Shown here: in pieces, positions 932-5,844 of the stretch | Layout: each line of letters opens with the position of its first letter | How positions within the stretch are numbered: the stretch's first letter is position 1 | NCBI GenBank assembly: GCA_949294425.1 | Contig: CASFHJ010000120.1 | Coordinates: 1-9,812, forward strand | Length of the DNA stretch: 9,812 bases | Direction: 5' to 3' | Source of the DNA: an uncultured Campylobacter sp. | Lineage (GTDB): Bacteria > Campylobacterota > Campylobacteria > Campylobacterales > Campylobacteraceae | Position numbers and translations under genes: made by a program | Notes under the pieces: model-generated | The model's database searches: none | What the model was told of the DNA's origin: nothing | What the model saw: only the letters and a program-made list of their open reading frames with translations

Positions 932-966
932 CTTTCTCCTAAGCATTAGCTTAAAAGAAGTTAAAA
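926..966. terminator. Hairpin between convergent genes, possible bidirectional terminator
   Basis: Outer arms TTTTAACTT (926-934) and AAGTTAAAA (958-966) are perfect complements. Inside them TAAGC (940-944) and GCTTA (949-953) form a second stem around ATTA. Both facing stop codons (TAA at 929-931 plus; TAA at 963-961 minus) lie inside the outer arms, and the symmetry suits ends of transcripts from both sides. The stem is AT-rich, so its strength is uncertain. Confidence 0.5.
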
Positions 967-3045
967 CTCCCATCTAATGCCAACTTGAGCACTTATGAAA
1001 TTATCAGCGCTATCATAAACTCTCTTACTTATCAAAGACTTAGCAGCTAAGGATAAATTTAAGGCAAGTCCGTCATTGTTTAAGTCAAGCTTACTTCCTG
1101 CTAGTATTTGAGCGTAGGTTCTGTTTTGATTAACCCTGCTAGTATCTATGCTAGTAAAATTACTTGTCCCGTCCAAAGCCACATTGTAAAAAGATGAGTC
1201 GCTTAAGACAAATTGCTCTATCTTAGGTCCTATGAAAAAGAAAGAATTTTCATTAAAATACTGCTTTAAGGCTATACCCACATCAAATGATACGGCATCA
1301 GCAGCGTAAGAGGCATGTTTTAAAGAAAAATCAGAATTCGTGCTATAAGCTGGTGTGTAGCTATTGTAGTAATTAAGTCCTATAAAATGTTTTATAGAAG
1401 TAGCCCCGCTATCTCCTAGCTCCATTACCTTACCCACCAAGGCAGATAAGGAGTAATAATTCCTAGTAAAAGATGAGCTCACATCATAAGAACCTAAGAA
1501 ATAATTTTGCTTAGTAGGATTAAAGGAAAAATTTGCCTTTAAATCTAGCTCCACGTTGTTAGAGAAATTTTTATTATAATAAAATCCCGCCTGATAAGTT
1601 TTGCCCTCCTCGCTGATAATATCATCTCTTAAATTCACATCAGCATAGCTAAGATACACTCCAAGTAAGCTATAATCATCTATTCTTCTATCAAAACCAA
1701 GACTTGCACCTAGCACAGAGGCTGAGTCGTGATTTAGTAAGTTTTGACCTCCAAAGAAATTCGCCCACAAGCCGTTATTTGTGTTATTGATAAATGCAGC
1801 ATAGGTTCTACCAGCCTCATCAAAAGCCATGGTTCCCATTTTTTTCTCATCACTTGCGTAAGGGTTTTTAAGATAAACCATTCTTGCATTTATGATTGCT
1901 TCATTTGATAAATTTATGATTTGATTTTGAGATGAGATTGCGGAGTTTGAATTTGCTATGCTATTAGCTGATCTTAGCACATCACTTGCCACACTTGCCT
2001 TGTGAGAGGGTGAATTTAGCATTTCAAAGGCTACGTAATTTTTCAAAGACGATGAAGCTACATTCTTATCTATTAACTTTGTAGCTAAATCAAGCGTTTG
2101 CTCATCTTTTATAAATAAATTATTATAAGCTCTTAAAGCCGCGTCTTTTTCATTTTGGTTTGAAGCCGAGGTATAAGCACTAAGAGCTTGCATTTGCTCA
2201 TCTAGATCAAAGATAGCTTCTTGCATTTGCGAACGTAAATCAACATCAAGAGCCTCATTTCTAGCCTCTTGTAACTGCGTTCTTAAAGTGCCTAGGTAGG
2301 TGTTTTTTGCATTTAAAACATAGTCCATATCTCTTGCATTTGCATTTAAAGAGCCACTCATCACCCCATAAGATAAGCCATTTGTCCCATTTACTCTTTC
2401 AGCCCAGACATCATAGTTTACGAAATTAGCTAGGTTCTGCTCTCTGGCTTCAAAGCTTCCTAAATTTATGCTTGAATCACTTAAAATTTCACTAAAAGCT
2501 CTTTTTAAAAAAGCCGTTGCATAGTTTGAATTATCAGAGTTTGAGTTTATACCGCCCTGTGCTTGAAGCACCACAAAGCGATCAAATTCTAAGGCTTTAT
2601 ACTGAGTAGCGCTTATGGCAAAGATAGAGCCAGTGCCACTTACCTCTCCTGTAACTACGAAATTTGAGTGAGTATTACTTCCATCACTTTCTATGTGAAT
2701 CACTGAAGAATCATTAAAGCTAAGGTTTCCATTTACAAGCAAGGAAGCACCTTGGCTTATTAGAATTTGTGAATTTTTATCAAGCAAATTTAAATCAGCC
2801 AAATTAGGCACACCAGAGCCTGAATTTGTGCCTGTTAAGCTTACATTTGAGTTTACTATGCTTTGTCCATTTAAGGCTCTAAATGAGACATTAGTAGCGT
2901 TTAAAGTGGAGGCTGAAATTTCAAAATTATCTATGTAGACTAGATTATCTGTGGTAGTATTGTTTATAGTTACCGCACTATTTGTGCTACTTACATCTAA
3001 AGAGAAAAAGAGCCTTGAGGCGAGGAAGCATTTGGAATGTCTGTG
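961..3045 (-). pseudogene. Autotransporter, 3' part (passenger remainder, helical stretch, beta-barrel), frame-broken
   Basis: This is the larger part of a type V (autotransporter) outer-membrane protein. The frame is open from 3045 down to TAA at 963-961; the first start-like codon is a GTG at 2811, but readable passenger sequence continues upstream, so it is not an independent gene. Numbered from that GTG: beta-helix-like repeats with N, S, G and V (1-90), a Q/E/A-rich probably helical stretch (about 160-312), then a barrel of about 270 residues starting near NGLWANFFGG (346-355) and ending in QVGIRWEF, with the terminal aromatic expected of a BAM-inserted barrel. The 5' part with the signal peptide lies in the other frame (2997-3308); adding one T to the T5 run at 3009-3005 joins both into about 782 residues. 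The CapA adhesin is a Campylobacter relative in architecture, but homology to CapA specifically is not shown. Phase-variable or lost function are both possible. Confidence 0.8.
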
Positions 3046-3308
3046 TTAAAATAAAAGGGCTTACCTTGAGTAAGGCGGGTAGAAAAATTATTGCCTATAT
3101 CGATACTTAAGGTATCACCATTAGCTAAACCCGTCATACCACCACTTGTTAGATAAGAATTTGAACTAACCCTATTTGTATCTCTATCGTAGCTAAAATA
3201 AGCACCAAGAGTATTAACATTACTTATAGTAACATCTTGTGCAAAGCCAAGAGTGCTTAGCAAAGCCAAAGAACAAAGGGGCTTTTTAAAAGAAGATCTT
3301 AAACTCAC
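2997..3308 (-). pseudogene. Autotransporter, 5' part (signal peptide and start of passenger)
   Basis: This is the N-terminal 103 codons of the autotransporter continued by the 961-3045 reading frame. Translation begins MSLRSSFKKPLCSLALLSTLG, a basic n-region and hydrophobic core with a likely signal-peptidase site after GFA (before QDVTI), then passenger sequence with N/S/T-rich short strands. The start is a GTG at 3308, six or so bases after AAGGA (minus strand). An overlapping ATG at 3310 gives ATG TGA and cannot be used. The frame ends at TAG (2999-2997) just after QGSFSL. A -1 shift in the T5 run at 3009-3005 would read GSFFSLDVSSTN and continue into the rest of the protein, which is strong evidence that the two parts were one gene. 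As it stands it would secrete only a peptide of about 80 residues to the periplasm. Confidence 0.75.
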
Positions 3309-3337: not shown

Positions 3338-3362
3338 GGCGAGTTTATACAAAAAAAAAAAA
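3338..3362 (-). promoter_or_regulatory. Candidate autotransporter promoter with T12 tract upstream of its -10
   Basis: Read on the minus strand, a run of 12 T (3362-3351) is followed by G and TATAAA (3349-3344), about 35 bases before the GTG start. This matches the T-rich + -10 layout of Campylobacter sigma-70 promoters. I see no good -35 box at 16-18 bases. A run of 12 is long enough to be slippage-prone, so its length could tune expression. Confidence 0.45.
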
Positions 3363-3558
3363 GACAAAATGCCTCTCAAAAGCCTATATATAAAGACTTA
3401 AGGCAGATAATAGCTCAAAAATTTGGTAAATAAATGGCAAATAAGATTAAAAAATTCTTAAATTTTTTAATATTTTTAGAATTTAAAAGGACTTAAGCTT
3501 ACAAAAAGTAACAAATTTTATCTCAGTTAACTTTTGTAAATTTTTGAAATAAAAATAC

Positions 3559-3589
3559 TTGACTTCTTTTTTTTTTTTTTTATTATAAT
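3559..3589 (+). promoter_or_regulatory. Putative phase-variable sigma-70 promoter, T15 tract in the spacer
   Basis: TTGACT (3559-3564, five of six bases of the -35 consensus) and TATAAT (3584-3589, perfect -10) are separated by 19 bases, 15 of which are an uninterrupted T run (3567-3581). Slippage in such a run would change the spacer; 19 is above the usual optimum of 17, so losing two T should strengthen the promoter and gaining T weaken it. TATTAT at 3581-3586 is an alternative -10 with a 16-base spacer. Transcription would start near 3596, about 32 bases before the first barrel gene. Campylobacter promoters often do without a -35 box, so the spacer-length effect is an inference. Confidence 0.65.
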
Positions 3590-3627: not shown

Positions 3628-4344
3628 ATGTTAAAAAGAAAGAATTTAGTTTCACTCTTAGCTGTTTTGGCTCTTTCATCTTCTTGCTTTGCTGATGAAA
3701 ATGAGGGCTTTTTCTTAGGTGCAGAACTTGGGGTTGCTTATGGCTCTTTTAAGGATAAAAACTCAGTCTTAGTAACTAATGCCGAACCTGCTATTAACAC
3801 TATAAACTACAAATCAGAAAGCATTAATGCTGGTGCCTTTGACGGGGCTATAAAAGTTGGATATAGATTTAACCCAAGTCATAGAGCCTATATAAGCTTA
3901 GGTGTTGGACAAAGACCTAGCGTCGAAAATCACGTGAGTATAGCTGATAGTATAGGCGGCGGTTTAAATGAAACCTTTAAGCTTAATAATACCAGCACAG
4001 ACCTCTTGCTAGGCTATGATTTTAGCCCTAGTATTTCAGATGGAATTAAAGGCTTACTTGGAGTGTATGCTGGATATTCAAGCCTATCAATAGATGGAAA
4101 AATGGATAATCAATACACAGGTGGAGATAGAGATATAGTCTCTTATAAAGAAAGATTTTCAGGCTTTGCTTATGGTGTGAAGGCTGGTTTTATCTTTGAT
4201 ATAAATGAAAACAATGAAATAGATCTTAGCTTAAGATACACTCAAAGGGATTATTCTGAAAAAGGTATTCCTTTAGATCCAGATAAGATAAAACCTACAA
4301 GTAGCGAAACTGGTCTATACATAGGCTATGCTTATAAATTTTAA
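3628..4344 (+). CDS. Outer-membrane beta-barrel protein, paralog 1 of 3
   Basis: A 238-residue precursor. The signal peptide (MLKRKN basic start, LLAVLAL core) is probably cut after CFA at residue 22. The mature part starts DENEGFFLGAELG and alternates short strands with variable polar loops, ending LYIGYAYKF with the C-terminal phenylalanine signal for BAM insertion. Blocks shared with the two following genes: IKVGYRF...HRAYISLG (75-92), LLLGYDFSPSIS...KGLLGVYAGYS (126-151), FAYGVKAGFIFDINENNEIDLS (180-201) and RYTQRDY. The layout recalls small Helicobacter-type outer-membrane proteins; ligand and role are unknown. The ribosome site GAAAGG lies 8 bases before ATG. It is the first gene behind the T15 promoter and is followed by a hairpin, so expression of the downstream copies may depend on read-through or their own promoter. 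The cysteine at position 20 is not in a lipobox. Confidence 0.8.
   Translation: MLKRKNLVSLLAVLALSSSCFADENEGFFLGAELGVAYGSFKDKNSVLVTNAEPAINTINYKSESINAGAFDGAIKVGYRFNPSHRAYISLGVGQRPSVENHVSIADSIGGGLNETFKLNNTSTDLLLGYDFSPSISDGIKGLLGVYAGYSSLSIDGKMDNQYTGGDRDIVSYKERFSGFAYGVKAGFIFDINENNEIDLSLRYTQRDYSEKGIPLDPDKIKPTSSETGLYIGYAYKF
4166..4247 (+). repeat. 82-bp block nearly identical to 4961-5042
   Basis: Eighty of 82 bases match the copy in the second barrel gene; the differences are G/A at 4182 and C/A at 4212. It encodes AYGVKAGFIFDINENNEIDL and the following SLRYTQR. Flanking sequence in the two genes is far more diverged, and the third gene matches this block only loosely. Confidence 0.85.
4322..4344 (+). 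repeat. 23-bp 3'-end sequence repeated exactly in all three barrel genes
   Basis: The last 23 bases, from TAGGCTATGC to the stop codon, are identical at 4322-4344, 5111-5133 and 5822-5844. They encode GYAYKF, the C-terminal barrel signal. Third positions are also conserved, which protein-level selection alone does not require. Confidence 0.85.
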
Positions 4345-4348
4345 GTTA

Positions 4349-4368
4349 GGGGCTAAAAATTTAGCCCT
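4349..4368 (+). terminator. Hairpin after barrel gene 1, probable intrinsic (partial) terminator
   Basis: GGGCTAA (4350-4356) pairs with TTAGCCC (4361-4367) around AAAT, with a flanking G·T pair, five bases after the stop codon, followed by TATTTAAAATCTTTT. The T tail is interrupted, so termination may be incomplete, letting some transcripts reach the next gene. Confidence 0.6.
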
Positions 4369-4393
4369 ATTTAAAATCTTTTAAGAAAAATCA

Positions 4394-4401
4394 TATAAAA
4401 T
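4394..4401 (+). promoter_or_regulatory. Possible -10 box for barrel genes 2 and 3
   Basis: TATAAAAT stands 31 bases before the ATG at 4432 and after the hairpin at 4349-4368. It is a fair -10 box, but no -35 or long T tract precedes it and such strings are common at this base composition. Confidence 0.3.
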
Positions 4402-4431
4402 TGCCAAATAAAATTCTAAAGGCTTTTATTT

Positions 4432-5133
4432 ATGTTTAAGAATTTATTTTTAAGCTTTTTATTTCTATCCTTTATCCTTAAGGCAAGTCTTTTTGCAAAT
4501 GAGGGCTTTTTTCTTGGTTTTGAGGGTGCCTTATCCTCAAGCATGCTAAAAGATAGAAATAAAAAACTCCCAATTCCAGATATATATGATGGAGCTGCTG
4601 AAGTAAGCTATAAGAGCTCAAATGTCTACGGCTTAGGTAAGGATTTGGCTATAAAAGTTGGCTATATCCTTGCTAAGTATCATAGATTTTACACTAGCTT
4701 ATCTTATGGAAGTAGAATCGACAAAGAAATACTCACAGGTTATACTTTTTTCCCCTCTGCTTATATAGGAAATAGTTACAAAATAAACGCAAAAAGCCTT
4801 GATCTTTTTCTAGGCTATGACTTTGCTCCTAGCATTTCAAAGGAGTTTAAAACCTTGCTAGGACTTTATCTTGGATATTCTAATCTTAACTTAAAAATAG
4901 ATGACAAAGCTTACGCCTATCCAGCCTTTACTCAGGGTGTTAATAAAAACTTTTTAGGTCTTGCTTATGGTGTGAAAGCTGGTTTTATCTTTGATATAAA
5001 TGAAAAAAATGAAATAGATCTTAGCTTAAGATACACTCAAAGAACTTATTCTAAAAAAGATATACAAGATATGTCTATAAAACCAAGCACTAGCGATGTA
5101 GCTCTTTATTTAGGCTATGCTTATAAATTTTAA
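4432..5133 (+). CDS. Outer-membrane beta-barrel protein, paralog 2 of 3
   Basis: A 233-residue precursor. The signal peptide MFKNLFLSFLFLSFILKASLFA is very hydrophobic, with likely cleavage after A22 before NEGFFLGFEG. The same strand blocks recur as in paralog 1: LAIKVGYILAKYHRFYTSLSYGSR, LDLFLGYDFAPSIS with LLGLYLGYS, GLAYGVKAGFIFDINEK and the terminal LYLGYAYKF. Segments between the blocks, such as residues 40-62 and 158-170, cannot be aligned by eye with the neighbours, as expected of exposed loops. The ribosome site AAAGG (4418-4422) is nine bases before ATG. Paralog 3 begins 24 bases after its stop, so these two are surely co-transcribed. The 82-bp segment shared with paralog 1 (4961-5042 here) is the clearest sign of exchange between them. 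Role unknown. Confidence 0.8.
   Translation: MFKNLFLSFLFLSFILKASLFANEGFFLGFEGALSSSMLKDRNKKLPIPDIYDGAAEVSYKSSNVYGLGKDLAIKVGYILAKYHRFYTSLSYGSRIDKEILTGYTFFPSAYIGNSYKINAKSLDLFLGYDFAPSISKEFKTLLGLYLGYSNLNLKIDDKAYAYPAFTQGVNKNFLGLAYGVKAGFIFDINEKNEIDLSLRYTQRTYSKKDIQDMSIKPSTSDVALYLGYAYKF
4961..5042 (+). repeat. Second copy of the 82-bp block
   Basis: Partner of 4166-4247, with 80 of 82 bases identical at an offset of 795 bases. Directly repeated and in the same frame of the homologous gene, so recombination between copies would fuse genes 1 and 2 in frame. Confidence 0.85.
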
Positions 5134-5157: not shown

Positions 5158-5844
5158 ATGAAAAGGCTTTTGCTTTCATTTATCTTTCTTATGTCTTTAT
5201 GTTTTGCTGATGAGAATTCAGGCTTTTTTATAGGAGTTGAAACAGGTTTTTCAAAGGGCGTTTTTGTAGATAAGGATAATCTAACTATCTCTAAGCTTGA
5301 TGAAAATGGAGATTATGTCTTTGATAAAATAAAAGATATATCAAATGACTCAGCCTTTAAATTTGGCTATAGATTTTCTAAAATGCATAGAATTTACACA
5401 AGCATAGGCTATGGAAAGAGATTTAATGTAAACTCTAGGGTTATAACGCCCACAAACACAGGAACAAGGGATTATACATATAAAAGTAAAACCTTTAGCC
5501 TTGACTTTGCCCTTGGCTATGATTTTACTCCAAGCCTTACACAAAGCATTAAAGGCTTACTTGGTTTTTACGGGGGATATTCAAGTTTTAATATGCAAAA
5601 TCAAGATCTTGTAATAAGGCAAAATTCCATAGATTCATACATATATAAAAGTATTGCTTCTGGCTTTCTTTATGGTTTAAAAGCAGGTTTTATACTAGAT
5701 CTAAGCATAAATAATGAAATAGAACTTAGTGCAAGATACACGCAAAGAAGATACAAACAAGCCCTGCTTAATCCTGACGAACTAGCATTTAAGCCAACAA
5801 CTAAGGATCTAGGCATTTATCTAGGCTATGCTTATAAATTTTAA
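5158..5844 (+). CDS. Outer-membrane beta-barrel protein, paralog 3 of 3
   Basis: A 228-residue precursor. The signal peptide MKRLLLSFIFLMSLCFA is probably cut after A17, giving a mature start DENSGFFIGVETG close to that of paralog 1. Shared blocks: FKFGYRFSKMHRIYTSIGYGKR, LDFALGYDFTPSLT with KGLLGFYGGYSSF, FLYGLKAGFILDLSINNEIELSARYTQRRY and the terminal IYLGYAYKF. It is the most diverged of the three in the penultimate block, differing from the other two both in protein and in codons. AAGGA (5147-5151) stands six bases before ATG, and only 24 bases separate it from paralog 2, so it belongs to the same transcript. Function is unknown; a surface-exposed barrel facing host, phage or antibody selection is an inference from the variable loops. 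Confidence 0.8.
   Translation: MKRLLLSFIFLMSLCFADENSGFFIGVETGFSKGVFVDKDNLTISKLDENGDYVFDKIKDISNDSAFKFGYRFSKMHRIYTSIGYGKRFNVNSRVITPTNTGTRDYTYKSKTFSLDFALGYDFTPSLTQSIKGLLGFYGGYSSFNMQNQDLVIRQNSIDSYIYKSIASGFLYGLKAGFILDLSINNEIELSARYTQRRYKQALLNPDELAFKPTTKDLGIYLGYAYKF

Follow-up and report, generated by a model that had tools for sequence, protein, structure and literature searches.

A 15-T tract between the boxes of a predicted sigma-70 promoter as a likely transcriptional dial for an outer-membrane barrel gene in an uncultured Campylobacter sp.

Does a run of 15 T's between the -35 and -10 boxes of a predicted promoter set the expression of the outer-membrane beta-barrel gene behind it, and does its length vary? 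The run lies in a 9,812-nucleotide stretch of DNA (hereafter the window) from an uncultured Campylobacter sp., represented by a MAG (G000; 1.25 Mb, 281 contigs, 77% complete). An initial annotation of the window had proposed a phase-variable promoter. Here, we report a comparison of this locus with the genus, using G000 and 48 further genomes (one per species), and conclude that the T15 tract is likely a slippage-driven transcriptional dial for barrel gene 1. Slippage at replication would add or remove T's; every T gained or lost would move the two boxes one base pair farther apart or closer together, and the altered spacing (19 bp at present) would alter the amount of barrel protein. The features of the promoter and its first gene are as follows.

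3559..3564, plus strand: -35-like hexamer TTGACT; CTTGACTT is also present in the promoter of the orthologue in G003, the closest relative
3567..3581, plus strand: T15 homopolymer, most of the -35/-10 spacer, beyond the ordinary run-length distribution
3584..3589, plus strand: -10 hexamer TATAAT, without a TG extension and preceded by TAT
3628..4344, plus strand: barrel gene 1, encoding a 238-aa outer-membrane beta-barrel protein and the first to follow the tract promoter (Pfam OMP_b-brl, E 1.9e-13)

On re-reading of the sequence, the arrangement given in the initial annotation was exact: TTGACT, TC, T15, AT and TATAAT follow one another with 19 bases between the two hexamers, and the ATG of barrel gene 1 (3628) lies 38 nt past the -10. 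The hexamers by themselves are unremarkable as to chance (33 sites in a sigma-70 scan of the window, 33.8 expected from shuffles). The scan gave this site as TTGACT-16-TATTAT because its spacers were restricted to 16 to 18. An intrinsic terminator was also tried as a candidate here and rejected, there being no stable GC-rich hairpin before T15 (71 nt, -2.9 kcal/mol, z 0.64).

The length of the tract is far outside chance, and T15 is not the tail of the ordinary T-run distribution. No other A/T run in the window exceeds 8, apart from a minus-strand T12 of the divergent promoter, about 200 nt off. A 320-kb sample of G003 held 436 A/T runs of 7, 82 of 8 and 7 of 9; lengths 10 to 13 were absent, and beyond them came a single run of 14 and a pair of 15. 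Genome-wide, G003 carries 29 tracts of T12 or longer, every one 13 to 16 long, and 2 of exactly T10. Across the 49 genomes, there were 377 tracts of T12 or longer versus 90 of exactly T10. The 16 genomes with at least 8 long tracts (8 to 56 each) accounted for 337, versus 35 of exactly T10; the other 33 genomes had 40 versus 55, and 13 genomes had no tract of T12 or longer. Per genome, the number of such tracts correlated with that of tracts of G9 or longer (Spearman 0.63). The 29 tracts of G003 have G before them in 26 cases and after them in 25.

Long T-tracts also keep a register with the -10. The pattern T12-N1-8-TATAAT was found in 22 of the 49 genus genomes, versus one genome (2 matches) for the reversed pattern; in an order-wide sample of 199 genomes, it occurred in 8 (3 of 7 in the genus, 5 of 192 outside it), and the reversed pattern in none. 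Among 88 collected tracts of T10 or longer, most of them picked by this same pattern, 73 had TATAAT, with a gap of GA in 31, G in 16 and GT in 7; 4 overlapped the tract. The base after the tract was G in 76 of the 88. Excerpts of published work on C. jejuni describe sigma-70 promoters with a -16 box, TTTTTTTG, a T-run directly upstream of TATAAT (PMC3824568), and a TGxTATAAT motif (PMC3656092); the G after the tract fits both, and the long tracts, T15 included, may be overgrown versions of that box. At T15 itself, the canonical Campylobacter sigma-70 -10 is present (3584-3589) and a T-run occupies the -16 position, but AT rather than G stands before TATAAT, so that neither TTTTTTTG nor a TGN extension is found there. 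Within the stretch that was scored, TATAAT was perfect at only 3 of the 29 G003 tracts, and at 6 of 29 no hexamer reached 4 of 6 matches with its A and T in place (raw scores, with no chance baseline). Should weaker -10 boxes be included, the pattern counts would therefore be minima. The initial annotation expected a poly-T transcriptional switch to be less usual in Campylobacter, but 22 of 49 species have T12 or longer followed by TATAAT within 8 nt; T-tracts at predicted promoters are common in the genus, and switching at them is putative.

Orientation was assessed in sets that were not selected by the -10. A predicted sense gene started within 170 nt of all 12 of the window genome's own tracts of T12 or longer and of 21 of the 29 G003 tracts, leaving 8 of the 29 without a sense start at that distance. 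With the same open reading frame rule on both strands (60 aa, open ends allowed), sense-only outnumbered divergent-only 20 to 3 (p 5e-4); at 120 aa without open ends, the ratio was 15 to 6 (p 0.08), and four other settings fell in between. The strand bias is supportive of promoter orientation and not decisive, because the result hinges on the open reading frame threshold.

Most C. jejuni promoters are described, in the excerpt available, as lacking a clear -35 box (PMC3656092), so the reading of TTGACT as a -35 needed testing. TTGACT-N13-23-TATAAT gave 596 matches in the 49 genomes versus 164 for the reversed control, matches that are not independent because related species have sites in common. 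Among the matches listed (G001-G011), there were 117 distinct sequences, with a peak at spacer 17 (36 sequences) and 22 at spacer 19; 17 of these 22 listed sequences belonged to one operator-like family, TTGACTTAGA-CTCTCATC. That family, TTGACTTAGA..CTCTCATC..TATAAT at spacer 19, is a repeated promoter family among the matches listed (G003 C1:21249-21279 and others), seen in G003, G005-G008 and G010, and looks like an operator inside the spacer. TTGAC lay within 30 nt upstream in 10 of 86 tracts (500 shuffles, mean 3.3, maximum 8) and in the next 30 nt farther out in 3 of 86. TTGACTT-NN-T9 occurred 4 times in the 49 genomes, and its reverse never. These counts, the matching promoter in G003 and the spacer peak at 17 among the matches listed support TTGACT as a -35, as the initial annotation had it.

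Within the 73 collected tract promoters with TATAAT, 39 had a TG-N extension and 7 had TTGAC at spacer 16 to 21. TG-N was absent in 6 of those 7, versus 28 of the 66 others (p 0.045), so two promoter designs seem to exist, and the promoter in the window would seem to belong to the -35-bearing one. Being without TG-N, it should depend on its -35. Because 17 was the commonest genus spacer among the matches listed, the strong state would be expected at T13 (spacer 17), with T15, as found now, weaker.

The orthologue of barrel gene 1 in G003 (53% amino acid identity) has the promoter CTTGACTTTTG-T14-ATAAT, that is, TTGACTT..T14..TATAAT with a spacer of 17. Flanks of the two promoters align at about 63%, a raw figure with no baseline for unrelated AT-rich flanks. 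A table of barrel promoters (29 of 30 loci, one truncated locus excluded) contained T15 in the window, T14 in G003 and no T-run above 7 in the other 27. Four orthologous tract pairs were found between G000 and G003 (T15/T14, T14/T15, T12/T13 and T13/T15; flanks 47 to 67% identical), and every one differs by 1 or 2 T; the pairs were drawn from proteins downstream of tracts (12 from G000 plus those of G003 with a predicted gene), so that tractless orthologues could not appear. A counter-example is the T12 of the divergent gene: in three G003 promoters that resemble it, the matching run is only about T8.

Closer copies were compared in ten tract groups with flanks at least 85% identical on one or both sides. 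Length was unequal in four: G029 T13 and G030 T14 (flanks 99.7% identical over 1.1 kb), three G010 copies of T13, T16 and T16 (93% identical), G012 T18 and T14 (117 nt identical) and G017 T20 and T16 (35 nt identical up to the contig end). The other six were equal (two G000 pairs, three G032 copies, three G033 copies, G045/G048 and G012/G045). Assembly miscalls in homopolymers can produce length differences. The proposal of a phase-variable promoter is carried part of the way, to a putative one, by the distinct length class, the T14 of the orthologue and the unequal near-identical copies elsewhere in the genus; for the tract in the window, the comparison is with a single distant orthologue, T14 (one MAG), and T15 itself would be expected to slip in living populations.

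Downstream of barrel gene 1, the plus strand carries a hairpin and two paralogues.

4340..4375, plus strand: hairpin where barrel gene 1 ends, followed by a weak T tail (-13.8 kcal/mol, z -2.38)
4432..5133, plus strand: barrel gene 2, a 233-aa paralogue 46% identical to barrel 1 (OMP_b-brl below the curated cut-off)
5158..5844, plus strand: barrel gene 3, a 228-aa paralogue 44% identical to barrel 1 (its own scan gave no OMP family match)

The hairpin is a possible attenuator or terminator, although a terminator scan of the window did not include it in its list. Lying between barrel genes 1 and 2, it makes co-transcription of the cluster uncertain. Control of the whole barrel cluster, as first proposed, is narrowed accordingly: the promoter precedes gene 1, and its reach beyond that gene is uncertain. 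Between genes 1 and 2 (4340-4435, plus strand), a TATAAA could be a separate -10 for gene 2. A protein search returned 7 further homologues of barrel 1, a genome contig scan two distant relatives only and a search of a plasmid collection no barrel relative. Compared with the G003 barrel 1, proteins P0002-P0007 have a near-identical backbone, with differences confined to a few short stretches; these are probably surface loops, as expected of an exposed antigen.

The same intergenic region holds the second long T-tract, facing a divergent gene.

3351..3362, minus strand: T12 tract of the divergent gene
3344..3349, minus strand: -10-like TATAAA after T12-G
2997..3308, minus strand: first part of the divergent gene, whose frame ends here; looks exported and autotransporter-like
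961..3046, minus strand: second frame of the divergent gene, open from 3046; the frames overlap at 2997-3046

The divergent gene (961-3308, minus strand) had no Pfam or NCBIfam match, and its split may mean a decaying gene, a variable gene or an assembly error. Upstream of it, ATTTGCCATTTATTTACCA (3424-3442, minus strand) is common to three similar G003 promoters. Across the 49 genomes, 4 copies of the element are exact and 3 carry one mismatch (reversed control, 0); it is possibly a regulator site.

Elsewhere in the genus, tracts precede genes of several kinds. From 79 downstream protein pieces, 71 were scanned for families (repeats and very short pieces excluded), and matches, counted without a background gene set, comprised dCache_1 (6), MCP-like sensor domain (5), methyltransferases (3), barrels, sodium symporters and B-box proteins (2 each) and singles that included a glycosyltransferase, TraT, CTP synthase, PheS and GrpE. 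Some tracts thus stand before housekeeping genes (pheS, pyrG and grpE); the label autotransporter-like is a reading of the sequences and not a family match. Two G003 loci (L209, C1:267244; L211, C1:297237) are copies of one T15 element whose near flanks are identical, and no gene start is predicted within 300 nt of either; at L209, a glycosyltransferase gene begins about 370 nt downstream of T15. Rfam at its gathering score returned nothing in these two loci nor in the window. On balance, though by a narrow measure, we favor a poly-T phasome beside the poly-G one in part of Campylobacter, in which -16 T-boxes would have grown into slipping tracts, mostly T13 to T16, that dial transcription, with barrels, autotransporter-like proteins, chemoreceptors, glycan enzymes and some housekeeping genes as its putative targets.

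Other readings of the tract have to be set against a dial. T15 could be a static promoter element, a rigid or bent -16 T-tract for RNA polymerase whose length changes are tolerated noise. Replacement of the -16 box of C. jejuni cj0183 abolished activity, according to the excerpt of PMC3824568; four orthologous promoters retain a tract although their flanks have diverged, and 6 of 10 similar-flank groups are equal in length, all of which would suit such an element. We nonetheless hold it unlikely: a static T-rich box would need no 13 to 16 uninterrupted T's, and ordinary runs end at 9 in the sample; 33 of 49 genomes manage with fewer than 8 tracts and 13 with none; and tract number tracks the number of G9 or longer tracts, as for contingency loci. 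Considerably less probable is a mutational attractor, in which T-runs past about ten bases would grow to 13 to 16 by biased slippage and have no function. The fixed register to the -10 via G or GA in 47 of 73 TATAAT tracts, the presence of T12-N1-8-TATAAT in 22 genomes versus 1 reversed, the retention of tracts in orthologues after flank divergence and the sense bias under a lenient equal threshold (20 to 3) all argue against it, even though the G003 lengths are tightly 13 to 16, some tracts lie before housekeeping genes or away from a predicted start, and the strand bias is modest at strict thresholds (15 to 6).

That the tract is the U-tail of an intrinsic terminator, or another RNA signal, is highly improbable; the T-run does sit on the transcribed strand, but the nearest upstream plus-strand gene ends at 931 and the neighbor is divergent. 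A point against the slippage-driven dial itself comes from C. jejuni, whose promoters, mostly without a clear -35, suggest that spacing may matter less. Also weighing against it are the six similar-flank groups of equal length, the tracts that stand before housekeeping genes or away from a sense start, the runs of about T8 in three G003 promoters and the 27 barrel promoters with no T-run above 7.

For a dial of this kind, the nearest known systems are in Helicobacter pylori, where a tract lies between -35 and -10 in 9 of 25 loci, including hopZ (14A) and HPnc4160 (14T), according to an excerpt of PMC4081817. The precedents named in the initial annotation divide accordingly: hopZ, with its 14A between the boxes, is apt, and sabA, with its tract upstream of the -35, is not. 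The HPnc4160 type, an uninterrupted mononucleotide tract of at least 9 between -35 and -10, is matched in the window by T15 and its place in the predicted promoter TTGACT-19-TATAAT. HPnc4160 (NikS) has a tract of similar length range (T14) in the same class of bacteria, and its expression goes from high at T14 to low at T16, with an intermediate level at T18 (excerpt of PMC8035401). It is a small RNA with measured length variation and multiphasic expression (PMC8035401), whereas the window has a predicted beta-barrel gene. The T13-14 tract of sabA tunes an outer-membrane gene by slippage, as is proposed for the window, but that tract is upstream of and adjoins the -35 (PMC4081817), and T15 lies downstream of TTGACT, inside the spacer.

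Campylobacter itself offers two parallels. Like the C. jejuni -16 box TTTTTTTG, the tract is a T-run directly upstream of TATAAT (PMC3824568, in part), but it is T15 and not T7, is followed by AT and not G, and has a TTGACT -35. Like the poly-G loci, including the capC promoters, it is a homopolymer, and some of those are in putative promoters (excerpt of PMC7168839); theirs, however, are mostly inside reading frames (excerpt of PMC6321876), whereas the class described here is poly-T at promoters. A PhasomeIt survey, in the same excerpt, counted 139 poly-A/T tracts of at least 10 in 77 Campylobacter genomes, half of them outside reading frames, with eight poly-T tracts in C. hominis, and called lengths above 10 infrequent (PMC6321876). 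The main text of a 2021 review gave no match for poly-T or poly-A (PMC8355987), and among the titles and abstract openings listed from the open-licence literature, none describes T12-T16 tracts as a class of Campylobacter promoter. The tract-in-spacer loci of H. pylori are known; a T12-T16 promoter class in Campylobacter would, as far as these sources go, be new and largely uncatalogued.

Phase variation in Campylobacter has been described almost wholly as poly-G switching. If the reading given here is true, promoters of graded transcription would extend the variable genes to those unable to afford a frameshift.
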